64,000 bases of DNA from NCBI RefSeq assembly GCF_900110105.1, contig NZ_FOCL01000016.1, forward strand, positions 1 to 64,000, written 5' to 3'. Position numbers and translations under genes: made by a program. Below, one piece after another: positions 16,607 through 54,087 of the stretch (position 1 is the first letter of the stretch; each line of letters opens with the position of its first letter). This DNA comes from Mucilaginibacter gossypiicola (lineage in GTDB: Bacteria > Bacteroidota > Bacteroidia > Sphingobacteriales > Sphingobacteriaceae). The notes below the pieces were generated by a model that saw only the letters and a program-made list of their open reading frames with translations, made no database searches and was not told where the DNA came from.

Positions 16607-16640
16607 AAAATCCCGGCCTGCTATATCAGACCGGGTTTTC
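16607..16640 (-). terminator. Hairpin between susD-like and GH32 genes
   Basis: cccggcctg/cagaccggg form a 9-bp stem with one mismatch and a 6-nt loop, followed on the minus strand by attttc. It sits inside the operon, so it could be a partial terminator or RNA-processing site that lowers GH32 expression relative to susCD. Confidence 0.45.
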
Positions 16641-16656
16641 GTTATTTTATTATAGT

Positions 16657-34365: not shown

Positions 34366-34438
34366 GGTACCATAGCTCAGATGGTAGAGCAAAGGACTGA
34401 AAATCCTTGTGTCACTGGTTCGATCCCAGTTGGTACCA
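34366..34438 (+). tRNA. tRNA-Phe (GAA)
   Basis: 73 nt. The acceptor GGTACCA pairs with TGGTACC, the D arm holds GCTCAGATGGTAGAGC, the anticodon loop ACTGAAAAT gives GAA, and the T arm is CTGGTTCGATCCCAG. The discriminator is A and a full CCA is not encoded. A terminator follows immediately. The 3' part of this gene is the repeated attachment sequence of the island described below. Confidence 0.97.
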
Positions 34439-34440
34439 CA
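34391..34440 (+). repeat. Attachment-site core (attL) within tRNA-Phe
   Basis: 50 bp, from the anticodon arm to 2 bp beyond the tRNA, is identical to 58876-58925 in the same orientation. A long exact tRNA 3'-end duplication is the classic footprint of tyrosine-recombinase integration at a tRNA. Confidence 0.85.
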
Positions 34441-36195: not shown

Positions 36196-36306
36196 TCTAC
36201 GTTTTTTAAGAGCGATAAATATAAAGAGCAATAATTGGCACCAATATATTCATACTTTCTCTTCTGTTTATTCGAACTATTTCTTTTCTTCAATGATATC
36301 TGCCAA

Positions 36307-37632
36307 TTATATTGAATAGCCTAACAAAATTTCTATCGCCTTATAGAAAAATAATCTATTACATAAGTTAACCATTGGGATAACATCTTCATTTCCCGAT
36401 TTGAAGAAAAATAAAGTTTTTTCAAAGTTTTTATGTTGAATTCGTAGCTCTCCTCCTTTTGAGTACATTTTCTTTATATCATTGAACTTATAGGTGAATT
36501 CTTGTCCAGCTGGCTTGATAAACGTTATAAAACCAATGCCTACTTTTATATATTTTTGGAAAGCGTTTTTTTCGTGAGAATAAAGTGAAAATATTATATA
36601 GCCATCTTTTTGCAAGTCACTTTCCAGCCGATCCAATAGATATACAGTCCAATATTTTTCAATAGTTCTATAAAAGTTCAACATTACCCCTTGGTTTTTT
36701 ATATCGGTGGTTTTCTTAAAATCACCATCCCTAGCCAAGAGTATTTTGCCGGTTGTTCTGTTTAGGCAGACGTAAACGTAATTCGTATGTTGATATACAT
36801 AATTCCTTTTAACTTCTGTATAATGGGAATAAAAATCAGTCATGTCATTGAAATTAACCTCTAAATCAATGGGCAAATTTTTCCGTTTATCCACAAACGA
36901 AAACTGGGCAAAGCCGTTTATGCCAATGTACAGATTCGTGTGAGCGAAATCATTATTAGCGGCACTTAACAATAAGGCTCCAAGTGAAGGAACGGCAAAC
37001 CAAATGGTTATCCAAAGAGGATCTTCAAGTCGAGCTATAAAGTAAATAAATAGACCTGGTATCAATCCAAAGAAAAAGAATTTGATATTTTTTTTAGCCT
37101 TTTGACCTGAATTCATGGGCTGTGCATCCTGAATTAGGTCAGAAAAACCAACTATAATTTTACCGATCCTTGCAGGTAATTTAAAAAACTCTAAATTCTT
37201 TGGCAACGGTTCTCCCCAAAAGCTTTGTGTTGGGTTATATTTCGGAGTTTCTTGCTGTTCTCGATCAAAGGGCGAGTAAAATTGTTTAAAAGGGTCATGT
37301 CTAAACCTTTCTTCTTCTTGCTCGTTGGTTTTTTTTCGTTCCTGTTTTTCTGTGTTACGGTATGAGTAGGAGTATGTGGTAGATTGTTCTTGAGTTTCGT
37401 TTATAGTGGTTTTAAAATATTCGCTATAAACAGAATTGAATTTTGAACGACTATCAGCATCAATTAAGATTGTATAAGCGTCTTTTATTTCTTGAAACTT
37501 CTTTGTAAAAAAAGGATCATCGAAATGTTTGTCTGGATGGAATTTTATAGCGTTTGAGCGGTAAGCTTTTTTTATTTGGTCATCGGTCGCATTGGAATCA
37601 ATGCCGAGAATTTCATAATAATCAACGAACAT
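36307..37632 (-). CDS. J-domain (DnaJ-like) membrane-anchored protein
   Basis: 441 residues. The N-terminal J-domain (about 3-70) is YYEILGIDSNATDDQIKKAY with an intact HPD tripeptide (KFHPDKHF), so it can stimulate an Hsp70 ATPase. A charged, Gln-rich linker follows, then two hydrophobic segments (about 185-225: FFFFGLIPGLFIYFIA, ITIWFAVPSLGALLL) and a soluble C-terminal region of unknown fold rich in aromatic strands. No zinc-finger or client-binding domains of DnaJ are present. J-domain proteins of this shape occur in several uncharacterised defence loci. It sits between the OLD nuclease and the SIR2 gene. Confidence 0.8.
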   Translation of the reverse strand: MFVDYYEILGIDSNATDDQIKKAYRSNAIKFHPDKHFDDPFFTKKFQEIKDAYTILIDADSRSKFNSVYSEYFKTTINETQEQSTTYSYSYRNTEKQERKKTNEQEEERFRHDPFKQFYSPFDREQQETPKYNPTQSFWGEPLPKNLEFFKLPARIGKIIVGFSDLIQDAQPMNSGQKAKKNIKFFFFGLIPGLFIYFIARLEDPLWITIWFAVPSLGALLLSAANNDFAHTNLYIGINGFAQFSFVDKRKNLPIDLEVNFNDMTDFYSHYTEVKRNYVYQHTNYVYVCLNRTTGKILLARDGDFKKTTDIKNQGVMLNFYRTIEKYWTVYLLDRLESDLQKDGYIIFSLYSHEKNAFQKYIKVGIGFITFIKPAGQEFTYKFNDIKKMYSKGGELRIQHKNFEKTLFFFKSGNEDVIPMVNLCNRLFFYKAIEILLGYSI

Positions 37633-37789: not shown

Positions 37790-40700
37790 TTATAACGCTC
37801 CGGCAACGGTTTTCTTTACCAACGTTGTTGCAGCGGCAGTTTGCCTTCCGAAAGTAGAGGCGGCAGAACTGATACCTGAAGTGGAAATTATCCAGGTAGA
37901 GATGCTGGGTACCGTGAACATAGCGATAGCGCCGATCAGGAAAGTAATGATAACTATACCAAATGATAATATACCGTTACCTGCGAAACGAGTTAATTCA
38001 GCCATTTTATTTATCGTTTCGGTTCCGTGGAGCAGACCTTCATAGCGGCTGATCTCAACGGTTAAAGCATATTGCTGAATATAGGCAGATAACCACATAA
38101 TGAGATAAGCTATCGCCCCGTAAAGGTTCACCGATACGAACCGGGCGATCCACGTGGTAAAACTATCCCGGAACGCGGGCAAGATACTGACCGCGACAGC
38201 AAACGGCCCGAGCAGCACAAGGATGCTTGAATAAAACACCTGTATGAAGAACACAAAATAAGTAGCTATTCGCAGAATCCATACGGCAAGCAGTTCAAGC
38301 AGTTGCGTAAGCAGCAATTGTATGCTGATCTGTAGTCGCTCTTTCAATTCGAGTATCGGGGTAACAATGGTAGAAATTCCTTTTTTGACGGTACTCGTTA
38401 CTTGATCCCAGGCCTGGTCATACCATGTATCAGATTCCTTGGCAGCAACTTCCGTCTGTGCCTGGAAATTATAAAGGCTGTCAGCCATTTCCTTCATCAA
38501 CTGCGCCCTTTTCACCCGCAGGTTATCCGCTTCGGTCTGTGCGCCTTTCCATTTCTCCTTGGATTGATTTTCCACTACCTCGCATGGAAAGGCGACTACC
38601 TTGACGAAGACGTTCCACCATAAAATGATCATCGCCAGGCTGAATGGCCTGAGCAATGGCATAATTTCAAGTTGCTTATCGCCAACCATCATTTCGTAAG
38701 ACTTTATGGCAAAAAATATGATCATGAAAATAGCGGATAACGCTTTTGCATCATCTATAAATGTTATACCCTCGCCCCAAATAAGGTTCCGTTTATTCTT
38801 CAAACTGCTTTTAACGAGCAGCCGCGATAAAATTAACGGCACAGCATGTCTCTTTCTCTGTGATTCTTTGCTTTCAATAGGTTGAGCTAACACTTTATAA
38901 CCCAAATCAAGAAAATAGCTAATCAGTCGGTTACATTCTGCCCGGGGTACTTTATTGATGAAACTCCTTGTGAGCAGTTCCTTCGCACTTTTTTCCTGTC
39001 CGGAACGCATGATCAATCCCAATGCCCATGACGTCGAAGAAGGACCAATTCGAAGTATGGCTTCTTTTAAGGGTTTATCACCATAGGTCGAATTTCCGAT
39101 TTTTGGTGGAATACCTGTATCTTCCAAATACCGTATAAACTGGTAGGCTGAAAGCAGGTCTTTGTTAGTGCTTCCGAGATGGTGTGTCGTTGATTTTTTG
39201 CCGATTCGAAATTCTTGCACGTCCTCAACTTCTGTGAAATCACGGGCTGGATGTTCAAGCATGAGCTCGAAGGTTTCCAGTTCCTGCCACGGATCGCAAT
39301 TAAACAATCTCAAATTGTTCTGGCGATCTACAAAATCTTTGCTATCGGCCTCCAGGCGTAGTATGTCCTTTGCAGCGGTAATGCTTCTAGTTACATACCG
39401 GAGCAATTGCATTAATAACGCTTCTTGTGAGACCCATGTGAAATCCGTTAGGTTATCGACCCTCGGCGTTCGCTTACGTACGCTGGCCAAAGCCTGCTCC
39501 AAAATAAGTGCCGCCTCGCTCGCGTTACCGGTTTCTGCGAGTAGCATGGCCCTTTTACCTTCCCAATAAGGCAGGCCCGGATTTGGCGGCCATTCCGAAA
39601 TACATTTTGTAACAACCTGATGATCCAGCGCATAAAGATGAAAAAGACATTTTTCATACCAGATACTCGCTATCCTTTCCCCTTCTAAAAATGGAAGAAA
39701 GCTGTCCATAGTGGAGGCACAGGCTTGCCATCGGTTGACAAAGCCTTCTTCACGATAATAACGCCAAACATTGAAATAGATAGACAACCATTGCTCTTCT
39801 AGCTGACCGCCTCGCCTGTTCGTGATGTTTTCGGTGACTTGGTGTTCATATTTTTGAAGTAAGGCCTCGTAGCTCGGCAGATCACTATCTTGTATGGGGC
39901 AAAGGCAACGCTCCATCCGCCAGTTGTATTCATAGAGTAGTTGGATATCTTCAGGGCCTAAAATCTCTGAAATTTTTGACCTGCTTAATCGGAAATTACG
40001 CGTCACGCTCCAAAGGTCTTTGCGTTGCTGAAGCGGGGCGATCAGCCAGTTTGGATAACTGAGACGGAGATCAGTCCAATGCTGCAATATTTCAGATGTC
40101 TTATGTGGCAGATCATTCTCAGTATAATGGACGGGCTTATCAGGCCAGTCAAGAGGGCGTTCGTTTTCGCGATAGTGCTGCAAGTAATCGAGAAATTTCT
40201 GTAAAAGTTCCTGGTGAGCCGGCTGTTGTCCTTCCTCGTTCAGCTTGACGACAATAATATTGCGCGTTTGAAGAAGGCGGCGTTGGGCGTCGGATAAATT
40301 CGACGACCCCACGAGATATATTTTAGGCGCGTTGTTGACGCCTAGATTGTCGTTTATCCAACTGATCCAGTTTAAGAAGTTGGGATCGTCCGCAGAAAAG
40401 CCAAGTAGACAAAAGGTATTTTCAAGTAGAGACTGTTGAACCGTATTGACAAAAGGAGCAAAGTCATGCGGATATTTTCGGTAATCTTCTTCACTGACAA
40501 TAAATGGCCGTTCTGATGGCATGCTGCCATGTAGCTTGACAATCCGCGGTTGCTCAGCAAATATTAGTTCATTCTTGTTGACAACAAGGTCGTACTTATA
40601 ATTATATACATTTTGACTTGCTCTTTCGAGTAACGTATCATAATTCGTCGTAAAGATATCGGTCCAGGGCAAGTTGAGCAGCCCAATATGGACATCGGAG

Positions 40701-41029
40701 GGACTATGATCAAGGTCTGGTAAGCTATCAATGACGAGTTTGTCCAACACCGGTCGACCAAAAGCGGCCTGGACCTCATCAGCTATCTTTAATATATTAA
40801 GATAGGTTTCTTTCGTGCCTGGTTTTTTGCCATTTAGTTTTTCATATAAAAGATCGCCAAGACCGGGCCACGTGGGGAAGTCCGGTTTGGTATGGTCATT
40901 TTTCTGGGCATTCCTGCTAAAACCTGATCCGATCATGACTGCCGCATGCTTCGACCAGAGGCGCTCCGCGATCTCTTTTATATAAGGCCTAGCATCTGCC
41001 GGGAATTCATTTATATCTACAGTTTTCAT
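37790..41029 (-). CDS. SIR2-domain protein fused to a TraJ C-terminal region
   Basis: 1079 residues in one frame. Residues 1-260 are a SIR2-like NAD-binding domain: VMIGSGFSRNA, IFTTNYDTLLERA, VKLHGSMPS, CLLGFSADD. A helical region follows to about 735, as in defence-associated sirtuins that deplete NAD after phage attack. From about 745 the sequence changes to a membrane protein matching Bacteroidota conjugative-transposon TraJ: AKALSAIFMIIFFAIKSYEMM, EIMPLLRPFSLAMIILWWN, a coiled segment, then helices to the end (ATYFVFFIQVFYSSILVLLGP). The join looks like a recombination scar in which traJ lost its start. Whether the fusion is stable and functional is unknown. Confidence 0.85.
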   Translation of the reverse strand: MKTVDINEFPADARPYIKEIAERLWSKHAAVMIGSGFSRNAQKNDHTKPDFPTWPGLGDLLYEKLNGKKPGTKETYLNILKIADEVQAAFGRPVLDKLVIDSLPDLDHSPSDVHIGLLNLPWTDIFTTNYDTLLERASQNVYNYKYDLVVNKNELIFAEQPRIVKLHGSMPSERPFIVSEEDYRKYPHDFAPFVNTVQQSLLENTFCLLGFSADDPNFLNWISWINDNLGVNNAPKIYLVGSSNLSDAQRRLLQTRNIIVVKLNEEGQQPAHQELLQKFLDYLQHYRENERPLDWPDKPVHYTENDLPHKTSEILQHWTDLRLSYPNWLIAPLQQRKDLWSVTRNFRLSRSKISEILGPEDIQLLYEYNWRMERCLCPIQDSDLPSYEALLQKYEHQVTENITNRRGGQLEEQWLSIYFNVWRYYREEGFVNRWQACASTMDSFLPFLEGERIASIWYEKCLFHLYALDHQVVTKCISEWPPNPGLPYWEGKRAMLLAETGNASEAALILEQALASVRKRTPRVDNLTDFTWVSQEALLMQLLRYVTRSITAAKDILRLEADSKDFVDRQNNLRLFNCDPWQELETFELMLEHPARDFTEVEDVQEFRIGKKSTTHHLGSTNKDLLSAYQFIRYLEDTGIPPKIGNSTYGDKPLKEAILRIGPSSTSWALGLIMRSGQEKSAKELLTRSFINKVPRAECNRLISYFLDLGYKVLAQPIESKESQRKRHAVPLILSRLLVKSSLKNKRNLIWGEGITFIDDAKALSAIFMIIFFAIKSYEMMVGDKQLEIMPLLRPFSLAMIILWWNVFVKVVAFPCEVVENQSKEKWKGAQTEADNLRVKRAQLMKEMADSLYNFQAQTEVAAKESDTWYDQAWDQVTSTVKKGISTIVTPILELKERLQISIQLLLTQLLELLAVWILRIATYFVFFIQVFYSSILVLLGPFAVAVSILPAFRDSFTTWIARFVSVNLYGAIAYLIMWLSAYIQQYALTVEISRYEGLLHGTETINKMAELTRFAGNGILSFGIVIITFLIGAIAMFTVPSISTWIISTSGISSAASTFGRQTAAATTLVKKTVAGAL

Positions 41030-41290: not shown

Positions 41291-41533
41291 TCGAACCATA
41301 AACTGTACGGTTCGAATTCCGCCCAGTCAGGGATTGTTAAAAGTGCTTTAATTCGCTTAAAACACGCATTTGATCAATTAAGTGGTTCGAATTCCGCCCA
41401 GTTAGGGGATGTTAAAAGTGCTCTAATGAGCTTAAAACCCGCATTTGTTCTAATAGTTGGTTCGAATTCCGACCAGTAAGGCATCATAAAAGAATCACTA
41501 ATTTTCTCAAAATTCGCACCTGATGTTAGGCCG
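41291..41533. repeat. 75-bp-period tandem repeat, locus A (three units)
   Basis: Units begin at 41309, 41384 and 41459, exactly 75 bp apart, each with ggttcgaattccgcccag or a close variant, then 'ttaaaagtgct.taat..gcttaaaa..cgcattt'. The third unit is diverged. The lead-in at 41291-41297 (tcgaacc) is the exact complement of the first unit's ggttcga. The core resembles a tRNA T-arm. Short ORFs read across it are periodic artefacts. The remainder of 41030-42063 shows no other gene; it is very AT-rich after 41750 and should contain the precursor promoter. Confidence 0.8.
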
Positions 41534-42063: not shown

Positions 42064-42267
42064 ATGAAAAAGAACCTTTATTTAAAAAGTTTAAGTAACT
42101 ACAAGAGCCTTAAAGCGGATACCTACAACACTACATTTGGAGGTTATGCGTCTACTGACCACGACGATTCAAATACCTTTGACAATTCACAAAGTTTCGA
42201 TTCATCTGATGAAAATGACAATTCAGTCTCAAATGACTTTTCATTTAGTTTGGACAATGTTTGGTAG
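42064..42267 (+). CDS. RiPP precursor peptide 1 (double-glycine leader)
   Basis: 67 residues. Leader of about 27 residues with the family pattern KSLSNYKSLKADT and a Gly-Gly site in TTFGG, the expected cut for a C39 peptidase. The roughly 40-residue core is nearly all Asp, Ser, Asn, Phe and Thr (YASTDHDDSNTFDNSQ onward), ends FSLDNVW and has no Lys or Cys. Repeated D-S and S-D pairs would suit Ser/Thr-to-Asp ester macrocycles made by an ATP-grasp ligase. It matches the style of 'grasp-with-spasm' modified peptides. Linkages are inferred, not seen. Confidence 0.8.
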   Translation: MKKNLYLKSLSNYKSLKADTYNTTFGGYASTDHDDSNTFDNSQSFDSSDENDNSVSNDFSFSLDNVW

Positions 42268-42310
42268 AAATAATTGCATTCCATTTTAATTTTTAAATAA
42301 TCCTTATTTT

Positions 42311-42514
42311 ATGAAAACCTTAACTTTAGTAAGCCTAACCAATTTCAAATCATTGACCGCTGAAACTTTTAATTTTACAATTGGCGGTAAAGCATCGCAA
42401 GATCATGATGATTCCAGCACCTTCGATAGTTCGAGCAGCTATGACTCATCCGATAGCAATGATAGTTCAAATAGCACGGACACAGAATCTTTGAGCTACG
42501 ATAACGTATTGTAA
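42311..42514 (+). CDS. RiPP precursor peptide 2 (double-glycine leader)
   Basis: 67 residues, a clear paralogue of precursor 1, 43 bp downstream. Leader MKTLTLVSLTNFKSLTAET with Gly-Gly in FTIGG. Core KASQDHDDSSTFDSSSSYDS and on, ending SLSYDNVL, parallels precursor 1 position by position (DHDDS, TFD, YDSSD/FDSSD, YDNV/LDNV). The only Lys is the first core residue. A good terminator 36 bp after the stop makes 1 and 2 a separate bicistronic unit that can be expressed far above the enzyme genes. Confidence 0.8.
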   Translation: MKTLTLVSLTNFKSLTAETFNFTIGGKASQDHDDSSTFDSSSSYDSSDSNDSSNSTDTESLSYDNVL

Positions 42515-42549
42515 GTCGCTATTTAAACAGCCATACAAATTTCTTTATC

Positions 42550-42584
42550 AGTTCCCGGTGACGCGTACTACCGGGAACTTTTTC
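42550..42584 (+). terminator. Terminator of the first precursor pair
   Basis: agttcccggt/accgggaact, a perfect 10-bp stem with a 10-nt loop and TTTTT tail. Confidence 0.9.
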
Positions 42585-42666
42585 AGGGAATAAATCTTTG
42601 AAGTTTCGAAGAGTTACTTTGTAATACTCTATTGCGAACCTAAATTTCACAATAATTAGTATTATT

Positions 42667-44016
42667 CTAATTAACAAGATTGATTGTTATGGAGTTTACC
42701 CAAACAATGCTTTTATCCTGACTTTTTTTCAATTGTCCTAAATAGAAATTTTTATCCGGCTTGACTAATTTTTTGAACAATTCTTTATTGTTAACAACCA
42801 CGCTTATTTGTTTATTCAAGTCTAACATTTTAGGACTTATAAGCAGTGTAAATTTTGTTATACGTGATGTTAAAATGTTAATTGTGTTATTGTGAATTTC
42901 TGCCTTTATAGCTGCACTTTCATCTAACTTATAATAGTCAAACGGAAAATAGGATTGCATTTTTTTATTGTATGCTTTAAGGTTGAATATTTTGTGCCAA
43001 GCAGCTCTGGGTAAGTTTAAATCCCAACTATTAACTTCTATCCAACTAAGACCTTCAAACAAAGAATTACTGGTCTCCCAATAGAGTTGTTTGGGGTATG
43101 GATTTCGGAATGTATTCGTAATGAATTTAATACTGTTGGGATAATCAATATCTAAATGTTTGTCTTCATGCGTGTAACCAAAATATTCCTTGTATTCCAA
43201 GGGCACATGTAAGGAATCCAGAATTTTAACAATATCTCTCGTTTGTTGAATTGGTCTAATATCGTCTTTGTCCGAATGTACAAGGCGAAGTGGGCGGTTG
43301 ACCGCATTAGCGATATAAAGATCATGAGCAAATATGTTGGAAAGCTTAGAATTATAAGCAATCATACCAGCGAAAATTGTAGGTTTATACAAGTCAAATG
43401 CAAAAGCACCATCCGATCCATCAGAATGTCCAAACACAAATACCTTACTGTCATCAAAATTGATTGTTTTCTTTAGTTCATAAATGATATTTTCAAGTGT
43501 ACTAAAAGTATAGTTTTTACTACCTCCAAATGAATTTGCAGCCCAATCAAACCCTTTACCGGGATCAGCAAATGGCTTTACGACGATGAAATTGGAATTG
43601 CAAAGTTTCGAATAAAAAGGATCGTCATCCGGCTGCACTTTTGAATTCTCAGCATCGGAAAATTTGGATTGCCCCACTGCTCCATGAAGTAATAAAATAA
43701 CAGTATGGCGCTGACTGGGATCATAGTTTTCCGGGATATAAAGTTTGAATGGAACATTTCCAAACACGGAATCCTGCATAAAGAATATATGTTCGCCTGT
43801 GAATTTGTCTAATGATGGATAATTATTAAAATTATGGATCTCATTAATAAGCTTTTCAAATGAAGAGTTTGCTGAAGTATTCACGGTTTGGTCGATGGAT
43901 ACTCTCGGCAAATCCTTGATGCTTACGGTTTGTGCCATTCCATTCAATTTGAAGCACGAGAATAACAACGTGATAAAAATATTGTTTAAATATTTGTTTT
44001 GATTTAAAATTTTCAT
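42667..44016 (-). CDS. Secreted alpha/beta hydrolase (esterase/peptidase-like) in the RiPP cluster
   Basis: 449 residues with signal peptide (ending near NGMAQ). An alpha/beta-hydrolase fold spans about 90-320: oxyanion strand VILLLHGAVGQ, nucleophile elbow FGHSDGSDGAF with Ser198, an acid candidate in VHSDKDD and a catalytic His candidate in GYTHEDKH. A C-terminal beta-rich domain of about 120 residues (KAEIHNNTINILTSRITKFTLLI) resembles those on bacterial feruloyl esterase-like proteins. It is encoded opposite to all other cluster genes, between the precursors and the receptor. Hydrolysis of the cluster's own ester-linked peptide is an attractive hypothesis; a general carbohydrate or peptide esterase is the alternative. 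Confidence 0.75.
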   Translation of the reverse strand: MKILNQNKYLNNIFITLLFSCFKLNGMAQTVSIKDLPRVSIDQTVNTSANSSFEKLINEIHNFNNYPSLDKFTGEHIFFMQDSVFGNVPFKLYIPENYDPSQRHTVILLLHGAVGQSKFSDAENSKVQPDDDPFYSKLCNSNFIVVKPFADPGKGFDWAANSFGGSKNYTFSTLENIIYELKKTINFDDSKVFVFGHSDGSDGAFAFDLYKPTIFAGMIAYNSKLSNIFAHDLYIANAVNRPLRLVHSDKDDIRPIQQTRDIVKILDSLHVPLEYKEYFGYTHEDKHLDIDYPNSIKFITNTFRNPYPKQLYWETSNSLFEGLSWIEVNSWDLNLPRAAWHKIFNLKAYNKKMQSYFPFDYYKLDESAAIKAEIHNNTINILTSRITKFTLLISPKMLDLNKQISVVVNNKELFKKLVKPDKNFYLGQLKKSQDKSIVWVNSITINLVN

Positions 44017-44189
44017 AAACGAGGCAGATTATAAATAAACAAATTCATGTGAAATTTGCTAAAAATAATCAAAAAAATGTAAATTATTCACTGTAAAATA
44101 TGATAATTCACATCAATATTAATTTTTTTAAAAAAAAATAATTTTTTTGTTGAATTTATTAAATATATTGCCAAAGTGATTTAAGCCTT

Positions 44190-46454
44190 ATGAATAAACA
44201 TCTAAAAATACTTTTAGCGACTCTTATTTGCATTTTTTTTAAAAACAACTCCTTCGCCACATCGGGAGTATATTTAGCAAAAGGCGATTTGAAACTAAAT
44301 GAAGCCCATAGAAGACGTAGCTGTATTCAACTCGATACAGGAAGGCACCAAAACATTATCATTAAAGATACAACTAAACAAAAAGCCGATACGTCCCGAC
44401 TAAGAAACAACGTGTTAAAAGGGGTTACAATTAAGGGTAAAAGGGTATTGCTCGTACAAAACGTTGACCGGTCAATTGTCACAGTCGAAAATAACAGGTT
44501 GTTTTTAGGAAGTAATCTTGAAGAAGTTTTAGAAAAAATACCGGGTGTTACTATTGATGGCAATAATCACCTTATTGTCAACGGCAATGGATCAGTAAAA
44601 TTTCAGATAAACGGAAGAGATATTCCAATTTCTGGTAATTCAATTTCATCATTCTTGAAGTCGATTCAATCTTCTGCCATAAAATCGGTCGAAATAATTA
44701 ACCCCTCGGCTAAGTCAGACGCCCAAAGTTCGGCTAAAATTTTAAATATAAATACTGTACAACAAACAACAGATGGGTTTACGCTAAGTCCAGGGTTAAC
44801 ATATTCTCAAGGTAAGTATGCGCGAACTGGAATAAATTTATTTTCCCAGGCAAAAGTTAAAAAATTCACCTTTCAATTACTTTCATTTGCCGATCTGTCA
44901 AATGAGTATTCTACCGAGAAGTCGTCGCGAATTTTTCGAAACACGACAAATTTCATCAATGAGTCGAAAGCATTGAACCGCAAAAGATCTTATCTAAACA
45001 AAATTGACATCAATTATAATTTTGATAAGAAAAACATTTTAGGACTAAGTTTCTATAACACACAGTCAAACCAGAAAAATTCAACTAACTCATTTTTTGA
45101 ATTTAGAAATAACACATCTCCGGACTCTTCATACTTGAACAACAGTTTGGGTAAACAAAACTTATCCTATTCAATTTATAGTGGCTATTTTAAACATGCA
45201 TTTGATGAAGATGAGGAATATATTTCTTTTAATGTCGATGTCAACAGAGCTACAAACAGACAAAACTACTTATTTACAAATCAGTCTATTTATTCAACTG
45301 TCGACTCCATCGGTACCAGATTAGATCAATCAACGCATTCCAACTCTAGCCTCTGGGTGCCCTCAGTGTACATAAACTATAGCAAACCATTGATAAAAAG
45401 TACGGGGCGTTTAGATCTTGGTCTGAAATATACTTCCACCAAAGACCACGAGTATTATGACGGCCAAAATGACTTAAATAACGCCTATTCATATAATGAA
45501 TCAGTTGCTGCCGGATATGTTTCTTTCTTATATGACAAGAAAGCATTCAGTTTTCAAGGTGGGTTTAGAGCGGAAAATTCGAGTACTAAGGGCGAGATAA
45601 ATAATAATTCAGTGACCGATAAAAAATATTTTAACCTATTCCCTTCCATCTCTTTACAGCGGAAATTTCATAACGATGACTACATTGTTTCCGTAAATTA
45701 TAGGAAAAGAATTATTCGGCCCACATTCCTGGCGTTAAGTCCTTTTCTTTATTTTACTTCTCCTTATGAAGCATTCCGCGGAGATGCGACGTTATCCCCC
45801 ACACTGATAGACGATTTTAATGCGTCATTTACTATTAAAGGGGTATACATCAACGCCAATTATAGTAGTATGCATAATGTGATATCGCAGTTGCCAATAA
45901 TTGACGATTCACTTACTACTATTACAAATCAATATATCAACATTGGTGCCGAGCATTACCGCTCGATCAATGTATCTTATCCATTCAACATAAAAACTGT
46001 TAGCCTCACACCTAGCGTGAATGCCGAATCCGCATCAAGCCACTTGACGATAAATTCTCAGAATCTGCTGAAGAACACCAGTGATATTTCATTTAACTTA
46101 AATGGGGTTTATCGCTGTGATAAGACCAGCAGATTCGAAATCAGGTCGTTTTATGTTCCTAAAGTGATAACGGTATCATCTACCATAAACCACAAAAGTG
46201 GCGTGACGATAAGATATATAAAAACGTTCTTAGACGGTAATTTAAGCATGAGAGCTGCAGTTGAGGATATTTTTAATGCCAATAAAGAAAGTGGATCAAA
46301 CAATTTCGGTGGATATGTAGGAACATTTTCAAATTTCTATGACAACAGAAGAGCCAGCCTTTCTTTAACCTATTCATTAAGAAAAGGAAAACGCGTGAGT
46401 ATTAACGCTCCGGGACAGGAAAATAGTGATACTAACGAAAGAATAAAAAACTAA
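44190..46454 (+). CDS. TonB-dependent-receptor-like outer-membrane barrel
   Basis: 754 residues with signal peptide (MNKHLKILLATLICIFFKNNSFA). There is no carboxypeptidase-regulatory domain; a short linker leads to a plug-like region (about 80-190: LKGVTIKGKRVLLVQ, VLEKIPGVTIDGN, INPSAKSDAQSSAKILNI) and a barrel of the 'outer membrane beta-barrel family' type (YRKRIIRPTFLALSPF, SLTYSLRKG). A similar but larger receptor lies at 54.1-56.5 kb. It is divergent from the hydrolase with 173 bp between, and in line with the modification genes 43 bp downstream. It may import, sense or export the modified peptide. Confidence 0.85.
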   Translation: MNKHLKILLATLICIFFKNNSFATSGVYLAKGDLKLNEAHRRRSCIQLDTGRHQNIIIKDTTKQKADTSRLRNNVLKGVTIKGKRVLLVQNVDRSIVTVENNRLFLGSNLEEVLEKIPGVTIDGNNHLIVNGNGSVKFQINGRDIPISGNSISSFLKSIQSSAIKSVEIINPSAKSDAQSSAKILNINTVQQTTDGFTLSPGLTYSQGKYARTGINLFSQAKVKKFTFQLLSFADLSNEYSTEKSSRIFRNTTNFINESKALNRKRSYLNKIDINYNFDKKNILGLSFYNTQSNQKNSTNSFFEFRNNTSPDSSYLNNSLGKQNLSYSIYSGYFKHAFDEDEEYISFNVDVNRATNRQNYLFTNQSIYSTVDSIGTRLDQSTHSNSSLWVPSVYINYSKPLIKSTGRLDLGLKYTSTKDHEYYDGQNDLNNAYSYNESVAAGYVSFLYDKKAFSFQGGFRAENSSTKGEINNNSVTDKKYFNLFPSISLQRKFHNDDYIVSVNYRKRIIRPTFLALSPFLYFTSPYEAFRGDATLSPTLIDDFNASFTIKGVYINANYSSMHNVISQLPIIDDSLTTITNQYINIGAEHYRSINVSYPFNIKTVSLTPSVNAESASSHLTINSQNLLKNTSDISFNLNGVYRCDKTSRFEIRSFYVPKVITVSSTINHKSGVTIRYIKTFLDGNLSMRAAVEDIFNANKESGSNNFGGYVGTFSNFYDNRRASLSLTYSLRKGKRVSINAPGQENSDTNERIKN

Positions 46455-46497
46455 TAAATTACTTAACCACTTATCATCTTAGCGATTTTAATTTTCC

Positions 46498-47472
46498 ATG
46501 ATAGTTATCCTCTCATTTAGTTATTATGAACAAGGTACAGATCCAGTTATTGACTGGCTATTATATTATAAGGTTCCATTTGTTAAAATTTGTGTCGAAG
46601 ATTTATTGACGAAGAGTCATGAATATAATTTAGACGTCAATACCGGTAGGCTTTCCATAGCTGGGACAGACATTACAGACAAAATTAAGGTGATATTTTT
46701 TAGACGATTTTATCGCTATCTGCAATTCGAAAATAAAGAAACCTTGGGGGAAATTTCCAGAAAAATATTTTATGAGTCAAATGAAGAATTAAATGGATTG
46801 ACTCAATTTTTATATAAAATATTTGAAGAAAAAATTTGGTTCCCCAGACCTGAAGTTGTCAATGTTAATAAACTGACGATTACCTACATTGCAAGTAAAT
46901 TAGGGATTAAAACGCCCAAATCGGCTATAATAAATAACAAAAATGATGTTGTCAAATTTCATAATTCGTGCAGCCAGGGTATCATAAATAAACCGATAGG
47001 AAGACTAAGTTACTATACGTTCGGCAGATACACTTACAACACTTACACTACAAAATATACTGAGGAAAAGATTGAAAAGCTTCAAAATTCGTTTTTCCCC
47101 TCTTTATTTCAGGAGGCTGTAATTAGTCAATATGAAGTTAGGGTCTTTTATATTGACGGTGATTTTTATGCGACAGCGGCGGTTTCAAGCAATAAAGATC
47201 GCAACATTGACATCAAACGAAGTTTTAATACGAAGGAATTGCGTTGGATTCCTTATGCTCTGCCGGAAAGTGTAAAGTTGGATATTACTAAATTAATGAA
47301 GGAAATTGATTTAGTTACAGGCTCAATTGATCTCTTGGTAGACGATGAGAACAATTTTACATTTATTGAAGTCAACCCTGTCGGTCAATATTTGGCACCC
47401 TCAAATCAAAGCAACTATTATATAGATAAAATAATCGCAGAATGGCTAATAAAAAAATTGCAGCTAGCATAG
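46498..47472 (+). CDS. gwsG: ATP-grasp peptide maturase, grasp-with-spasm type
   Basis: 324 residues. N-terminal pre-ATP-grasp region (MIVILSFSYYEQGTDPVIDWL, VIFFRRFYR), then the ATP-grasp fold: a nucleotide-binding strand (GIINKPIGRLSYYTFG), an external-element motif (FQEAVISQYEVRVFYIDGDFY), and the metal/ATP site TFIEVNPVGQYLAP, close to the FxEVNPxGQ of microviridin and other graspetide ligases. These enzymes activate Asp/Glu side chains as acyl-phosphates and join them to Ser/Thr/Lys as esters or amides. With Lys-free precursors, esters are expected. Four cotranscribed genes follow with overlapping ends. Confidence 0.88.
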   Translation: MIVILSFSYYEQGTDPVIDWLLYYKVPFVKICVEDLLTKSHEYNLDVNTGRLSIAGTDITDKIKVIFFRRFYRYLQFENKETLGEISRKIFYESNEELNGLTQFLYKIFEEKIWFPRPEVVNVNKLTITYIASKLGIKTPKSAIINNKNDVVKFHNSCSQGIINKPIGRLSYYTFGRYTYNTYTTKYTEEKIEKLQNSFFPSLFQEAVISQYEVRVFYIDGDFYATAAVSSNKDRNIDIKRSFNTKELRWIPYALPESVKLDITKLMKEIDLVTGSIDLLVDDENNFTFIEVNPVGQYLAPSNQSNYYIDKIIAEWLIKKLQLA

Positions 47473-47708
47473 TTTCAAATGATGAAGATACTCCGTTTGA
47501 TGAGGAGCTCTTGCTTAAAATACCATTAGGTTATAGATCTATGGTTAAAAAGGAAACGGAATTTATTGGAGAACTATATCGACGTGTGAAGTTTAGTGGT
47601 TCTAAGCTTTTTCAGTCGAATCAGTACTCGAATTTCCCGTCACATAAACCAATTTCGAATCTACTACTGGATTTAAGAATTCAAGAAACCATTGAAACAG
47701 ATGAGTAA
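47442..47708 (+). CDS. Unknown 88-residue RiPP-cluster protein
   Basis: 88 residues, overlapping the end of the ATP-grasp gene by 31 bp and the next gene's ATG by 8 bp, so almost certainly translated with them. Acidic start (SNDEDTPFDEELLLKIP) and a basic, aromatic middle (YRRVKFSGSKLFQSNQYSN). No signal peptide, no membrane helix, no cysteines. I do not recognise a family. Position between ligase and SPASM partner suggests a role in leader recognition or complex assembly, which is inference from gene order only. Confidence 0.7.
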   Translation: MANKKIAASIVSNDEDTPFDEELLLKIPLGYRSMVKKETEFIGELYRRVKFSGSKLFQSNQYSNFPSHKPISNLLLDLRIQETIETDE

Positions 47709-48651
47709 GCATTTAATTCTCCACGCCCATTGTATCCCGGTTCGAGGTAAAGAACAAGGGGCTATATATGATTTACAAAAAGGGTCACTTATGTTCATTC
47801 CAAATTCGATGATTGATTTGATAGAATATATGAGGGACGAAAGCTATCATAAAACTAGAAAAGTGGTCAACTCTTTAGCGTTTTTCAAGGAGCATGTAGA
47901 TTTTATTTTATCGAATGGCCTAGGATTTTTTACCGATCACCCTCAGCGATTTATTGCTCTTCCCGATCAATATCATTCGCCGGAGGAAATATCGACAGCG
48001 GTTATAGAATACGGAGCTGACAAATTTGATTTAAAGTCCGTAATTAATGAATTGAATATGTTGCGTTGTAAACACATTGAATTCCGTTATATTGACTGTA
48101 ACCCTGATTTCTCAGAACTAAGAACATTGATTGGATACACAAACAATTCTACCATACGGTCGATTGAGCTTCATTTGACTCAAAACGAAAAGATAAGTAA
48201 AGTCAATTTACTCGGTCTGGCAGGCGAGTTTAAGAAGCTTAGAACAATTAACGTTCATAATTCAGCAAGTGCGGATTATGATTTTAAGAATAATATTTTC
48301 TTCCTTGAGAGCGATTGGAAAACTGTCGAGCAAAAACATTTTCCCCATGATGTGTACATTGTCAATATGAAGTTTTTTATGGAAAGTCAGAAGTTCAATA
48401 CTTTTTATAACCAAAAAGTCTGTATTTCCAGAGATGGGTATATTAAAAACTCCTTATTGAACGTAAGGCATTTTGGTCAATATAGTACAAATAATACACT
48501 TACAGATGTAGTTAGAACTGATGAGTTTAAGAAATTATGGTTTATTAGTCCGGATATGATAGAGGAAGTCAAAGAATCTGAAACGAGGTATGCGACCTTG
48601 TTTTCACAAGATGTAGAATTAATAGATGGAAAATATCATTTAATTCATTAA
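47701..48651 (+). CDS. gwsS: SPASM-domain maturase partner, grasp-with-spasm type, cysteine-poor
   Basis: 316 residues from ATG 47701. The middle is an alpha/beta repeat region (IEYGADKFDLKSVINELNML, HIEFRYIDCNPDFSELRTLI) like a radical-SAM barrel lacking its CxxxCxxC. The C-terminal part follows the SPASM layout of this family: FYNQKVCISRDGYIKN, HFGQYS, EFKKLWFISPDMIEEV, ETRYATLF. Cysteines expected after KN, in the 'C-x-DC' and in 'RY-x-C' are Ser, Val/Ser and Thr/other here; only the KVC cysteine remains. The Fe-S clusters are therefore probably not bound. It overlaps the exporter gene by one base (TAATG). Confidence 0.8.
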   Translation: MSKHLILHAHCIPVRGKEQGAIYDLQKGSLMFIPNSMIDLIEYMRDESYHKTRKVVNSLAFFKEHVDFILSNGLGFFTDHPQRFIALPDQYHSPEEISTAVIEYGADKFDLKSVINELNMLRCKHIEFRYIDCNPDFSELRTLIGYTNNSTIRSIELHLTQNEKISKVNLLGLAGEFKKLRTINVHNSASADYDFKNNIFFLESDWKTVEQKHFPHDVYIVNMKFFMESQKFNTFYNQKVCISRDGYIKNSLLNVRHFGQYSTNNTLTDVVRTDEFKKLWFISPDMIEEVKESETRYATLFSQDVELIDGKYHLIH

Positions 48652-50879
48652 TGAAGAGTCTGCAAAGCAAATTTGTCTTTTATCACCAAGCTGATCATAT
48701 GGATTGCGCTGCTACTTGCTTAAGAATGGTAGCTAGATACTACGGCGCAGACTATGATGTCTCACATCTGAGAGATTTGGTAAATACAACCAGGCAGGGG
48801 GCTAGCCTTGCTGGCATCCAAGATGGTGCAGGAGCGATCAGGTTAAAAACACTTGTATCAAAGGGGACAGTGGAAAATTTGGTTAAAGAGCACTTGTTAC
48901 CTGCGGTATTATATTGGAATCCAGATCACTATGTGGTACTTTACAAGATTTCCGAGACAAAAAAAGGCGAATACATATTCTTTATTGCCGATCCCGCACT
49001 TTCAAAATATAAAGTATCTGAAAAAAAATTTAGAGAAAAGTGGGTTAGTGACAACGCCGACGGTGAAGGATTGATCGTGTTTTTCGAGCCGGGCGAGGAC
49101 TTCATGGAAACATACGATGAATATGCGTTAAATTACGTGAAGCCATCGAGGCACTTTTACTGGGAATATGTTAAAGCTCACAAAGCCTCGTTCTCATTGA
49201 TATTGTTAATAACGATAATCTCTTCATTATTTAATCTGGTATTTCCTGTACTTACACAAAAAATTGTAGATACGGGCATCCCGAATAAAGACCTGTCACT
49301 TATCTCACTTTTCTTGTTGTTTCAGATTGGGGCATTTATTGGCAGTTCAGTGTTCGACATGGTTAAGGGTAGGTTATTATATGTTGTTACGACTAGAATT
49401 AATATAAATATATTAACAGAATTTCTTTTAAAGTTAACTAGGCTATCCGTTCGTTATTTCGACAATAAGGTCGCGAGCGATATTACGCAAAGAATTGCTG
49501 ATCATTCGCGCATTGAAAAATTCCTGACAACGAATTTGATTGGAACCATATTTTCGGTTTTCAACTTTGCTTTTTTTTCTTTCTTGATCTTAAAATATGA
49601 TTATAAGATTTTTTTAATCTTCCTGAGCATCACCGTATTTTCCATTTTATGGATGTTCATGTTTGTTAAGAGGCGTAAATCAATAGAATATAAGCGTTTT
49701 GAAGCATACAAGGATTCCTCAAATTCTTCATATGAAGTGATTTATGGAATGAAGGAACTAAAGTTGAATAATGCACAAATAGCCAAAATAGAAGATTGGG
49801 GTGTTGATCAAAAAAAAATCTACGCGATTAACAAAGAGTCGATGCTTTTGGAGCAGAGGCAAAATATAGGAAATGTCTTGATAAATCAAACCAGAAGTGC
49901 ATTAGTAACATTTTACTGCGCTTTTTTGGTCATCCACGGGAAGATATCAATTGGTGAAATGTTAAGTATTTCATTTATGTTAGGTCAATTATCATCTCCT
50001 TTTACACAATTTTTTGAATTTATTAAAGGATGGAACGAGGCATATTTCAGTTTTGATCGGATTAATGAAGTAAAGGAGAGACAAGACGAGGATGATGAAT
50101 TCCTCCCTCATGGTCATACCCTAAAAACAGTTTCGGCATTTGAAAGAATATTGATTTCTAATTTGAATTTTAAATACGATAAAAGTTCTCCGGTTAATGT
50201 TTTGGACGGCATCAATATTGAAATAAAAAAGGGGCAAAAGGTGGCTTTTGTTGGTAATAGCGGAAGCGGGAAGACTACATTGGTTAAATTGTTGTTGAAA
50301 TTTTACCTACCGTCTAAAGGAATTATTAGCGTAGACAGTAATGACTTAGCAGAGTTAGAAGCAAACAGTTGGCGGCAAAAATGCGGTGTTGTGATGCAGG
50401 ATGGATATATATTTTCAGCAACAATATTACAGAATATTTGCTTGGATTCGAAAAAAGTGGATCTGGAACGGGTTAAGCAAGTTTGCCATCTGGCGAACAT
50501 CAAGGATTATATAGAATCCTTGCCAAAAAAATATAACACCAAGATCGGCGGTTCCGGTGTTGGTTTAAGTGGAGGCCAAATTCAACGCATTTTGATAGCG
50601 CGGGCATTATATAAAAATCCTGAAGTGTTGTTTTTTGATGAAGCTACAAGTTCCTTGGATACGGAAAACGAGCGTATAATAATGGAAAACATTAATGAGT
50701 TCAGCACGGGTAAAACGCTCGTTGTTGTCGCTCATAGATTAAGTACTGTAAAAAATGCAGATATGATTTATGTTTTTAATAACGGTAAAATAGTGGAGGC
50801 TGGTAATCATGTTGAGTTATTGGTGAATAAAGGCTTTTATTATAAATTGGTTTCAAATCAATTGGAGTTATCAAACTAA
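48651..50879 (+). CDS. C39-peptidase-containing ABC exporter
   Basis: 742 residues. N-terminal C39 peptidase (about 8-150): catalytic Cys19 in MDCAATCLRMVARYYG, His in PDHYVVLY, Asp in IADPA; it should cut precursor leaders after Gly-Gly. A six-helix transmembrane domain fills about 175-460. The ATPase has Walker A GNSGSGKTT (about 534), signature GLSGGQIQR (about 640), Walker B VLFFDEATSSLD and switch His in VVAHRLS. It processes and exports the modified peptides through the inner membrane. No HlyD-type adaptor is in the window, so passage across the outer membrane needs other components. Confidence 0.95.
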   Translation: MKSLQSKFVFYHQADHMDCAATCLRMVARYYGADYDVSHLRDLVNTTRQGASLAGIQDGAGAIRLKTLVSKGTVENLVKEHLLPAVLYWNPDHYVVLYKISETKKGEYIFFIADPALSKYKVSEKKFREKWVSDNADGEGLIVFFEPGEDFMETYDEYALNYVKPSRHFYWEYVKAHKASFSLILLITIISSLFNLVFPVLTQKIVDTGIPNKDLSLISLFLLFQIGAFIGSSVFDMVKGRLLYVVTTRININILTEFLLKLTRLSVRYFDNKVASDITQRIADHSRIEKFLTTNLIGTIFSVFNFAFFSFLILKYDYKIFLIFLSITVFSILWMFMFVKRRKSIEYKRFEAYKDSSNSSYEVIYGMKELKLNNAQIAKIEDWGVDQKKIYAINKESMLLEQRQNIGNVLINQTRSALVTFYCAFLVIHGKISIGEMLSISFMLGQLSSPFTQFFEFIKGWNEAYFSFDRINEVKERQDEDDEFLPHGHTLKTVSAFERILISNLNFKYDKSSPVNVLDGINIEIKKGQKVAFVGNSGSGKTTLVKLLLKFYLPSKGIISVDSNDLAELEANSWRQKCGVVMQDGYIFSATILQNICLDSKKVDLERVKQVCHLANIKDYIESLPKKYNTKIGGSGVGLSGGQIQRILIARALYKNPEVLFFDEATSSLDTENERIIMENINEFSTGKTLVVVAHRLSTVKNADMIYVFNNGKIVEAGNHVELLVNKGFYYKLVSNQLELSN

Positions 50880-51035
50880 AAGCCTTTTTTCCTCTTTTAT
50901 TGCCAGGTCCTCAATGAACTATTCGCGATGTCCAATATTATCTGAATAAAAAAAGTCGACACAACTATTTACTTCAAAAGGCGATCTTATTTGTTTGCAT
51001 GACCTTGTATTAAATACGTAATAAATTAATAGAAT

Positions 51036-51257
51036 ATGAAAAAACAAACAATTTGTTTAGAAAATCTCTTGGATTTTAGAAGTGGAGAGCAACAAATCAC
51101 AATTTTGTCCACGACATTTGGTGGTGTCTATTGTCACGACGGTGATGTATCCTATTCACAAGACACCTCAACGTCAGGTGATGTATCACAATTGGATGAC
51201 AATTCGCAATCAACGGATGATTCGGAAACTTTGGATAGCAGTGATAACCATGATTGA
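51036..51257 (+). CDS. RiPP precursor peptide 3 (double-glycine leader)
   Basis: 73 residues. Leader with the CLENLLDF block and Gly-Gly in STTFGG. The core of about 43 residues (VYCHDGDVSYSQDTSTSGDV onward) repeats short Asp-Ser/Thr units and ends DSSDNHD, the same ending as precursor 5. There is one Cys in the core and no Lys. It follows the exporter by 156 bp and is probably the first of three tandem precursors. Confidence 0.8.
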   Translation: MKKQTICLENLLDFRSGEQQITILSTTFGGVYCHDGDVSYSQDTSTSGDVSQLDDNSQSTDDSETLDSSDNHD

Positions 51258-51360
51258 CTTTATTTATTAAAAAAAAAATAATCAAGTTTTGTCGTATTAT
51301 TTTATATTATCAAAGTTTATTTTTATATTTAAATGAGCTTATAATCTAAATCTAATTTAT

Positions 51361-51585
51361 ATGACAAAACCTACAATTACCTTAGAAAATCTTCAGATTT
51401 TCAACACAAAAAATCAAATTGCAACCAATTTGTTTGCAACTTACGGTGGTGTTCTTCAATCACACGATAATGATCAATCGGATCAAAACGACTACTCTTA
51501 TTCGAATGATATTTCGGAATACTCGGATTCGAGCCAGCATAACGACGATTGTACTGCCGGTGACACCAGCGCATCAGCAGATTAA
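51361..51585 (+). CDS. RiPP precursor peptide 4 (double-glycine leader)
   Basis: 74 residues. Leader ITLENLQIF and Gly-Gly in FATYGG, then a core of about 44 residues rich in Asp, Ser, Asn, Tyr and Gln (SHDNDQSDQNDYSYSNDIS). It has one Cys (DDCTAG), no Lys, and ends SASAD. The leader block resembles precursors 3 and 5, whereas the core is its own, consistent with a shared enzyme set acting on diversified substrates. Confidence 0.8.
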   Translation: MTKPTITLENLQIFNTKNQIATNLFATYGGVLQSHDNDQSDQNDYSYSNDISEYSDSSQHNDDCTAGDTSASAD

Positions 51586-51603
51586 TTTTATCAAAAGAAA
51601 ATC

Positions 51604-51813
51604 ATGAAAAAAATCAATTTAGAAAGTTTATCAAACTTTAAAGAACAATCCGGCAGCATCTTGTATGCAGTGCTAGGCGGGCAACAGTCAGTATCATATG
51701 ATACATCAGGTATTGGCGATACGTCAACGAATAATGATACGTCAACGGCCGCGGATAACTCCACTGACCACGATGGATCTGATTCTTACGATACATCAGA
51801 TAATCACGATTAA
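51604..51813 (+). CDS. RiPP precursor peptide 5 (double-glycine leader)
   Basis: 69 residues, 18 bp after precursor 4. Leader NLESLSNFKEQSG with Gly-Gly in YAVLGG. The core has the most regular repeat of the five, a D-T-S spacing about every 7-8 residues (YDTSGIGDTSTNNDTSTAAD), ending YDTSDNHD. It contains no Cys or Lys. The regular acid-hydroxyl spacing is what a repeated-macrocycle graspetide would need. A terminator lies 57 bp downstream. Confidence 0.8.
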   Translation: MKKINLESLSNFKEQSGSILYAVLGGQQSVSYDTSGIGDTSTNNDTSTAADNSTDHDGSDSYDTSDNHD

Positions 51814-52520: not shown

Positions 52521-54074
52521 TTATTCGACTTTAATCAAAATAGGAATGGAGTGTTCACTTTCATTCTTAAGTCTGTCTATCGCGGTAACAACATAGCGGT
52601 ATGTTTTTCCTTTGATGATCCCTCTGTCTGTATAAGTAGTATCGGTGTTGTATTGAATATGGATAATTTTCTTTGGATCGTCGGTGGTTATTAGGTTGTC
52701 GCTTTCATCAAAACGATAAATTACATAGCCATATGCAGGTTCATTATCTGTGGCAGGCAAAGGTTGCTGCCAGGTAAGGGTTACTGATCCAGCAGAAGAA
52801 GTAGCTGCAACCCGGTGGGCTGGATTTGGCGCTACAGAATCGAGCCATAACATAACTGGAGGGAGCGCCGGGTAACGGTAATAGTTGTTTTTTAAAGAGT
52901 CGGTAAAGCCCAGCGGGTTTTTAATAAGCGAGTTTGAACTGAAATAAACACTGCCCTGTACGCGTGGGTTTTTGCGCAGGTATTTAACCTGATTAGGTAA
53001 TTGAGATGGCAGCCTGAACCCTGCAAGCTTGTTTTCAATAATGCGGTAGGGGCCCTGGCCAATGTATAAATGCCGTCCGTATGTATTATTGCCCCACCAA
53101 TCAACCAAAACATTAAAGGCAACCGAGCGGTCATTAAGCAAACGATACAATTGCGGATTGATATAGTCAACCCAGCCTTCTTTTACCCATTTTTTGGAAT
53201 CGGCGTATAGTTCGTAATAGGAGTCGCCACCACGTGTACCAGAGCCTTCTGGATTTTGATATTTATTGGCCCAAATGCCAGAGGGGCTTACGCCGAATTT
53301 TAACCGCGGATTATGCTGATGAATGCTATCGCTTAGCATTTTAACCAATCGGTTAACGTTATCCCTCCGCCATTCCCTGATATCGGTAAATGCCGACCCA
53401 TATTTGGCAAATGTTTGTGAATCGTTGATTTGCTGGCCGGCTACATGGTAGGGATAAAAGTAATCGTCGAGATGGATACCATCAACATCGTAATTATCCA
53501 CCACATCAAGTACAACCCGCACTATATATTCCCTAACTTCGGGAATCCCCGGATCAAACAACTTTTGGCCGCCGTAGGTAAAAAACCATTCGGGCTTAAT
53601 GTTGGTAATGTGGTGCGGACTTAAAGCAGCATAATTAGCATCCTTAGTTGCCCTGTAAGGGTTAAACCAGGCGTGCAGTTCCATGCCACGTTTGTGCGCC
53701 TGTTCTATAGCAAATTGGAGAGGATCATATAAGGGATCGGGTGCTTTGCCCTGTTTGCCGGTAAGCCATTTTGACCATGGCTCGCGGCTTTTAGCGTAAA
53801 ATGCATCGGCGGCAGGCCTTACCTGTAACATAATGGCGTTAATGCCAGCTGCCTGGTGCTGGTCAAAAATGTCAACGAGTTCTTTCTGCTGCTGGGCAGT
53901 GCTTTCTGTAGCGGTTTGAGGCCAGTCTATATTTTCAACAGTTGCTATCCAAACCCCTCTGAATTCTCTTTTAGGGTACGCGTTAACTTTTGTAGTATCC
54001 GTTACCTGCGCGGTTGCTCTGAAGCCTAAAAGGGAAGCCAAAAGTAATCCAGCGATGCTTATTGTTAGTTTCAT
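52521..54074 (-). CDS. DigH/YddW-like glycosyl hydrolase (GHL10) with C-terminal Fn3-like domain
   Basis: About 517 residues from ATG 54074 (MKLTISIAGLLLASLLGF signal). The GHL10 TIM barrel (about 35-370) carries the family's conserved stretches: FRGVWIATVENIDWP, GINAIMLQVRPAADAFY, HKRGMELHAWFNPYRAT, LFDPGIPEVREYIV, DGIHLDDYFYP, KFGVSPSGIWANKY, YINPQLY. Escherichia coli DigH, which cleaves peptidoglycan glycan strands stripped of stem peptides, shares this pattern. Residues about 405-517 look like a fibronectin type III domain (SVTLTWQQPLPATDNEPAYG). Last gene of a four-gene operon that also encodes an amidase able to create denuded glycan. Confidence 0.85.
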   Translation of the reverse strand: MKLTISIAGLLLASLLGFRATAQVTDTTKVNAYPKREFRGVWIATVENIDWPQTATESTAQQQKELVDIFDQHQAAGINAIMLQVRPAADAFYAKSREPWSKWLTGKQGKAPDPLYDPLQFAIEQAHKRGMELHAWFNPYRATKDANYAALSPHHITNIKPEWFFTYGGQKLFDPGIPEVREYIVRVVLDVVDNYDVDGIHLDDYFYPYHVAGQQINDSQTFAKYGSAFTDIREWRRDNVNRLVKMLSDSIHQHNPRLKFGVSPSGIWANKYQNPEGSGTRGGDSYYELYADSKKWVKEGWVDYINPQLYRLLNDRSVAFNVLVDWWGNNTYGRHLYIGQGPYRIIENKLAGFRLPSQLPNQVKYLRKNPRVQGSVYFSSNSLIKNPLGFTDSLKNNYYRYPALPPVMLWLDSVAPNPAHRVAATSSAGSVTLTWQQPLPATDNEPAYGYVIYRFDESDNLITTDDPKKIIHIQYNTDTTYTDRGIIKGKTYRYVVTAIDRLKNESEHSIPILIKVE

Positions 54075-54087
54075 TATCAATCAAATA

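Follow-up and report, generated by a model that had tools for sequence, protein, structure and literature searches.

Two questions are raised by a locus of Mucilaginibacter gossypiicola: how its ribosomally synthesised and post-translationally modified peptides (RiPPs) pass the outer membrane, and what a secreted hydrolase and an outer-membrane receptor are doing amid the genes thought to make them. For most RiPPs of Bacteroidota, we know of no established route across the outer membrane. The stretch of DNA analysed, hereafter the window, consists of 64,000 nucleotides (positions 1 to 64,000 of contig NZ_FOCL01000016.1, assembly GCF_900110105.1), and the locus, at positions 42064-51813, belongs to a divergent group of the grasp-with-spasm clusters that make graspetides. 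It comprises five precursors with a GG leader, an ATP-grasp ligase, a small LPL-like protein, a SPASM-family protein, and an ATP-binding cassette (ABC) exporter with a C39 peptidase. The genes of the hydrolase (42667-44016, minus strand) and of the outer-membrane barrel (44190-46454, plus strand) sit between the first two precursors and the ligase gene (46498-47472, plus strand) and, since three further GG-leader precursors are found downstream at 51036-51813, the pair lies inside the cluster. The original prediction, made from the DNA letters alone, had described a hydrolase with a signal peptide and a GHSDG nucleophile elbow, divergently paired with an outer-membrane receptor between precursors and ligase, and had proposed that the receptor re-imports the peptide, the hydrolase then opening it. 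The description is confirmed on both counts, the two genes being separated by a divergent intergenic region of 173 bp (44017-44189), for which the counterpart in M. phenanthrenivorans measures 207 bp.

The barrel, a protein of 754 residues, matches OMP_b-brl_3 (PF14905) at 202 bits and, weakly, Plug. A search of the Protein Data Bank (PDB) with its sequence returned chance matches only, and its AlphaFold2 model (15-row alignment, mean confidence score pLDDT 76.7) matches the TonB-dependent transporters FepA (E 4e-20), PfeA, and BtuB, with the plug and the large barrel that define this fold. With a loose pattern, 8 of the 15 barrels gave a TonB-box-like LKxVTIxG stretch ahead of the plug, a putative TonB box. 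To place the cluster among its relatives, one genome per species was scanned with the ligase alignment over about 85,000 species, yielding 80 loci, and a ligase tree of 98 loci, obtained with a quick search, puts the window in a clade of 28 rows (SH-aLRT 99), in which L119 and L120 have identical ligases and L085 and L121, belonging to one genome, are counted once. Within this clade, a PF14905 barrel is encoded near the ligase and on the same strand in 17 of the 28 loci, mostly directly upstream (most at 2.3-3.1 kb), and four more loci have a receptor of a different type, CarboxypepD_reg plus Plug. Because it recurs in this way across Bacteroidota families (Sphingobacteriaceae, Prevotellaceae, Flavobacteriaceae, Leadbetterellaceae, Chitinophagaceae, and Lewinellaceae are represented in the clade), the barrel is almost certainly a genuine, core component of the cluster, as originally predicted. 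The idea that it is peculiar to this genome can be rejected, 17 loci of the clade having one. A second PF14905 receptor of the window (54088-56538, minus strand) lies beyond the last precursor and is adjoined by a GHL10 glycosyl hydrolase-like gene (52521-54080); given its CarboxypepD_reg domain and its opposite strand, it is not of the cluster type and was treated as unrelated.

The function of the barrel was approached by comparing the 52 loci having a C39 ABC gene within 9 kb, a full-length HlyD being defined as 290 aa or more. Among these, 18 have the barrel only, 29 full-length HlyD only, one both, and four neither (Fisher p 2.9e-9, the loci being taken as independent and their relatedness ignored). 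Several barrel clusters encode, after the C39 ABC gene, a short HlyD-like protein of 139-174 aa, of which the window has none; these short proteins (L118, L119, L126, L132, L141, L143, L161, L190) keep the membrane anchor and are devoid of most of HlyD. Since full-length HlyD hardly ever occurs together with the barrel, the latter is most likely an outer-membrane conduit for the peptide, replacing the HlyD/TolC route. That it handles the peptide is considered probable, and that it moves it outward rather than inward is rated slightly below an even chance. The import direction of the original prediction was therefore not borne out, an exit role being favoured by the retained C39 exporter, the rarity of full-length HlyD, and the near-exclusion itself. 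A functional precedent for outward transport is Oar of Myxococcus xanthus, a TonB-dependent transporter required for the secretion of PopC (PMC6434023), whose substrate is a protein and not a RiPP. Besides, the association as such is already known from Makarova et al. 2022 (PMC8939145), where barrels of pfam14905 are recorded alongside ATP-grasp genes and proteins related to TonB receptors are predicted to serve export. The barrels of its cluster 163 (pfam14905 / SusC-type), located beside ATP-grasp genes, belong to the same Pfam family as the window barrel, whereas the restriction to a clade and the near-exclusion with HlyD, found here, do not appear in the available parts of the paper.

Several observations speak against an exit role. 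A barrel fold with a plug is of the importer type. On the tree, the opposition between barrel and HlyD is reduced to two to five independent pairs, two of which are on well-supported branches, and a paired test cannot reach significance. Furthermore, a subclade from Hymenobacter, Arcicella, and Chitinophaga tropicalis (L127-L130, L135, L138, L142), with a Cys-less SPASM protein, keeps another type of TonB-dependent transporter with no C39 ABC gene nearby, and TolC- or HlyD-like genes may exist elsewhere in the genomes. An M50-peptidase-like gene (L128) and a subtilase (L127) were also noted in this subclade. A barrel standing in HlyD's place, together with a Cys-less SPASM clade, would make the outer-membrane passage of RiPPs addressable by single-gene deletions.

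The hydrolase, for its part, is a protein of 449 aa with an N-terminal hydrophobic signal (...LLFSCFKLNGMAQ) and the GHSDG nucleophile elbow at residues 196-200. It matches the Pfam family Esterase (PF00756) at 25 bits for a cut-off of 22 and has weak matches to polyhydroxybutyrate (PHB)-depolymerase-like models; it bears a distant likeness to PHB-depolymerase-type esterases and to LC-Est1C. The hydrolase region covers approximately residues 87-300 and is followed by a beta-rich C-terminal region. As S198, D251, and H283 are unchanged in the alignment of 13 homologues and in a homologue from Emticicia, the catalytic triad looks intact. No beta-propeller was matched in Pfam, no isopeptidase was matched in sequence among solved structures, and no siderophore esterase in the PDB at E<=1. 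A pattern scan of the genome contigs with the hydrolase alone returned no relatives, and the AlphaFold2 model built on three aligned rows was of low confidence (pLDDT 53).

Of 399 genomes from the family, 45 have a homologue of the hydrolase at E<=1e-8. Close homologues, at 38-53% identity, come exclusively from Mucilaginibacter (14 genomes counting the window's own, with one homologue, in G155, split into two frames). Among the neighbourhoods of the 13 others, a graspetide cluster is present in that of M. phenanthrenivorans only (G383 = L116), in the order hydrolase (minus strand), barrel, precursor, ligase, LPL-like, SPASM, ABC, and precursors. Between these two Mucilaginibacter clusters, the barrel (45% identity) and the hydrolase (44%) are the fastest-changing genes, the ligase (65%) and the ABC exporter being conserved at 65-68%. 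At the level of the clade, the hydrolase is found in three of the 28 loci, the third being that of Emticicia sp. 21SJ11W-3 (L117), from another family, whose hydrolase (44% identity) ends the same-strand run OMP-precursor-ligase-LPL-SPASM-ABC-145aa-GT-GT25-hydrolase. The hydrolase is a rare accessory of these clusters, and of the co-occurrence with ATP-grasp clusters that the original prediction put forward as a check, the receptor's part stood and the hydrolase's proved weak. Glycosyltransferases (GT) were observed in related clusters, namely at 15086-17156 of the Emticicia locus (UDPGT-like and GT25 by Pfam) and, judged by eye, at 3264-5713 of L085, from a metagenome-assembled genome of Mucilaginibacter; for this reason, some graspetides of related clusters may perhaps be glycosylated.

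The linkage between the hydrolase and the cluster is probably real, and the hydrolase no mere bystander, since every close copy in a genome with such a cluster lies in the cluster, including that of the distant Emticicia. Indeed, each of the three cluster-bearing genomes owning the gene has a single close copy, located 4-7 kb from the ligase, the chance for a single gene to fall within 10 kb of the ligase being approximately 0.3-0.4% per genome (20 kb over 5-7 Mb). Among 18 genomes with related clusters, Emticicia is the only one with a close copy; 150 genomes from its family yielded no second one, and in 395 genomes sampled across the class close copies turned up in Mucilaginibacter only. As the two Mucilaginibacter clusters may represent one event, this linkage has to be read as resting on two lineages. 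In the same line, a chance neighbourhood of the hydrolase/barrel pair was rejected, the same divergent pair abutting the same cluster in M. phenanthrenivorans.

These data can be accommodated by graspetide clusters of one clade whose barrel would serve as exit conduit and whose esterase would be optional, an explanation that is preferred here and held with a little less than even confidence. Going by its family, the ATP-grasp ligase would crosslink the Asp-rich and Ser/Thr-rich cores of the precursors through side-chain esters, and the C39 ABC transporter, again by family membership, would remove the GG leader and carry the peptide over the inner membrane. The barrel would then act as the peptide's own outer-membrane conduit, where related clusters use HlyD and TolC. 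As for the hydrolase, it would be an optional esterase, secreted or periplasmic, that a few clusters of the clade have acquired, and its most likely task would be to act on the product's ester bonds on the producer's own side of the outer membrane, either for self-protection or for turnover. This last step is the weakest one, and an action of the hydrolase on the product is regarded as possible more than probable. If it does open ester crosslinks, the hydrolase would represent a new kind of graspetide enzyme, useful for analysing these peptides.

The strongest competing view is that the hydrolase is a passenger, i.e., an ordinary secreted esterase of Mucilaginibacter standing beside the cluster and unrelated to the peptide, which is compatible with any role of the barrel. 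It is supported by three findings: 12 of the 14 close homologues from Mucilaginibacter are solitary and lie outside RiPP loci, several of them with common neighbours (an acetyl-CoA-synthetase-like gene, SurE, and an acyltransferase), the homologues share the same active site, and the cluster copies do not group as a clade of their own in the hydrolase tree. Going by this tree, either the hydrolase entered such clusters on more than one occasion, or lost clusters left some of the solitary copies behind. Against an action of the hydrolase on the product also count the 25 of the 28 clade loci that are without it, and the hydrolase-free clusters, whose precursors have the same Asp/Ser cores. Judged by where its orthologues lie, mostly outside RiPP loci, which the original prediction had named as grounds for refutation, the hydrolase as a family is no dedicated graspetide enzyme. 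Against the passenger role stand the in-cluster copy of all three genomes that combine gene and cluster, with the low chance of such proximity, and the Emticicia copy, the only close one in 150 genomes of its family. In view of these opposing elements, the passenger role is considered somewhat unlikely.

A less favoured possibility is self-immunity, in which the barrel, instead of carrying the product outward, would be a resistant version of the receptor that lets the peptide into competitors, the hydrolase detoxifying any peptide that comes back into the periplasm. The cluster has no other obvious immunity gene, and the faster divergence of barrel and hydrolase compared to ligase and ABC exporter would fit such a role. 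However, self-immunity would not predict the near-exclusion between barrel and HlyD, and it presupposes an activity of the peptide, which is here a putative property. It is thus deemed unlikely.

Import followed by hydrolysis is regarded as still less likely. In such a cycle, the graspetide, once secreted and possibly loaded with metal, would be taken up again by the barrel with the help of TonB, and its esters would be opened by the periplasmic hydrolase. The TonB-dependent transporter fold with its plug and its proximity to FepA and PfeA, the secreted PF00756-type hydrolase with its triad, the divergent pair kept in two species, and the Asp-rich precursor cores all agree with it. The siderophore receptor PfeA and the periplasmic esterase PfeE follow the same logic of a TonB-dependent transporter plus a periplasmic esterase as the window pair. 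We know of no such cycle of release and re-uptake for ester-crosslinked peptides, and its stricter form, in which a dedicated graspetide esterase and its barrel would retake the released peptide and open its crosslinks in the periplasm, for ligand release or self-protection, is given equally little credence. Against import stand the many barrel clusters without hydrolase, the hydrolase homologues found mostly outside RiPP loci, and the lack of sequence match to isopeptidases or siderophore esterases in solved structures. Clusters with a lasso peptide isopeptidase (AtxE2, SpI-IsoP) likewise combine a serine hydrolase and a TonB-dependent receptor beside a RiPP, but these isopeptidases are of the prolyl-oligopeptidase type with a beta-propeller, and their clusters have sigma/anti-sigma genes and, except for rubrinodin, no ABC transporter (PMC9266682). 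In contrast, the window has the C39 ABC exporter (48651-50879, plus strand), and no FecI/FecR (sigma/anti-sigma) or GntR gene was found among the open reading frames of 42064-51813. The lasso analogy of the original prediction accordingly breaks down, and a lasso-type isopeptidase was rejected on architecture (449 aa, no propeller).

With regard to known graspetide systems, the cluster resembles the grasp-with-spasm clusters (TIGR04192/TIGR04193; branch 5 of Makarova et al. 2022 and group 14 of Carter et al. 2026, matched by gene content and not by their trees), which likewise have the ligase, a SPASM-family protein, GG-leader precursors, a C39 ABC exporter, and a small gene before the SPASM one. 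The GG-leader precursors and the C39 ABC exporter within one locus support this assignment. The window differs by both maturases scoring below the curated cut-offs, by the loss of the SPASM cysteines, by the barrel upstream of the ligase, by the absence of a full-length HlyD, and by the accessory hydrolase. More precisely, the ligase scores 220.2 bits (E 4e-65) against TIGR04192 for a cut-off of 230, and is on this similarity a clear yet divergent relative, whereas the SPASM-family maturase (47692-48651, plus strand) scores 132.7 bits (E 2e-38) against TIGR04193 for a cut-off of 175. In the latter, the cysteine motif CxxCExRYxCxxC is replaced by VKESETRYATLF. These cysteines are gone in all four aligned clade members (window, L116, L085, L098) and retained in all seven comparators, one of them with a partial last pair; the statement on their loss relies on the aligned cases and on the clade itself, the regular expression missing some divergent motifs outside the clade (no-Cys calls for proteins with 10-15 Cys). 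According to Carter et al. 2026 (PMC13097080), SPASM-domain proteins, typically with two auxiliary Fe-S centres, accompany all Group 14 graspetides. The small protein of 88 aa (47442-47708, plus strand), whose gene overlaps the ligase and directly precedes the SPASM gene, is called LPL-like on the basis of this position, which is where the available parts of Makarova et al. 2022 place the LPL family (PMC8939145). Finally, alpha/beta hydrolases are found in graspetide loci elsewhere, namely those of cluster 24 (pfam00561) in microviridin clusters (Makarova 2022) and those of Group 1 (Carter 2026); in contrast to these, the window one is PF00756-like, has a signal peptide, and belongs to a different clade of clusters.

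All five precursors are encoded on the plus strand and have cores rich in Asp and Ser/Thr with almost no Cys. Precursors 1 (42064-42267) and 2 (42311-42514), of 67 aa each, have leaders ending in FGG and IGG, respectively, and Asp/Ser-rich cores, that of precursor 1 being YASTDHDDSNTFDNSQSFDSSDENDNSVSNDFSFSLDNVW. Precursors 3 (51036-51257, 73 aa) and 4 (51361-51585, 74 aa) also have a GG leader and an Asp/Ser-rich core, and precursor 5 (51604-51813, 69 aa) has a GG leader and a core of repeated xDxS. The source genome, of 8.2 Mb, has the window locus as its only TIGR04192 locus, and the cluster has a G+C content of 34% compared to 39-40% in its flanks. Just upstream of it, at 41309-41533, lie three tandem repeats of 75 nt (100, 84, and 63% identity), each starting with GGTTCGAATTCCG, which resembles a tRNA T-arm. 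Further upstream, the gene at 37790-41029 (minus strand) encodes a DSR2-type SIR2 defence protein (PADLOC Dsr2, 924 bits, residues 8-750) whose C-terminal part resembles TraJ of conjugative transposons (weak PF07863, membrane-rich), i.e., a chimera of defence and conjugative-element genes. An AAA ATPase resembling the defence ATPases of the GajA/AriA type is encoded at 34516-36231 (minus strand), its neighbours being a gene for a DnaJ-domain protein (36307-37632) and one for tRNA-Phe (34366-34439).

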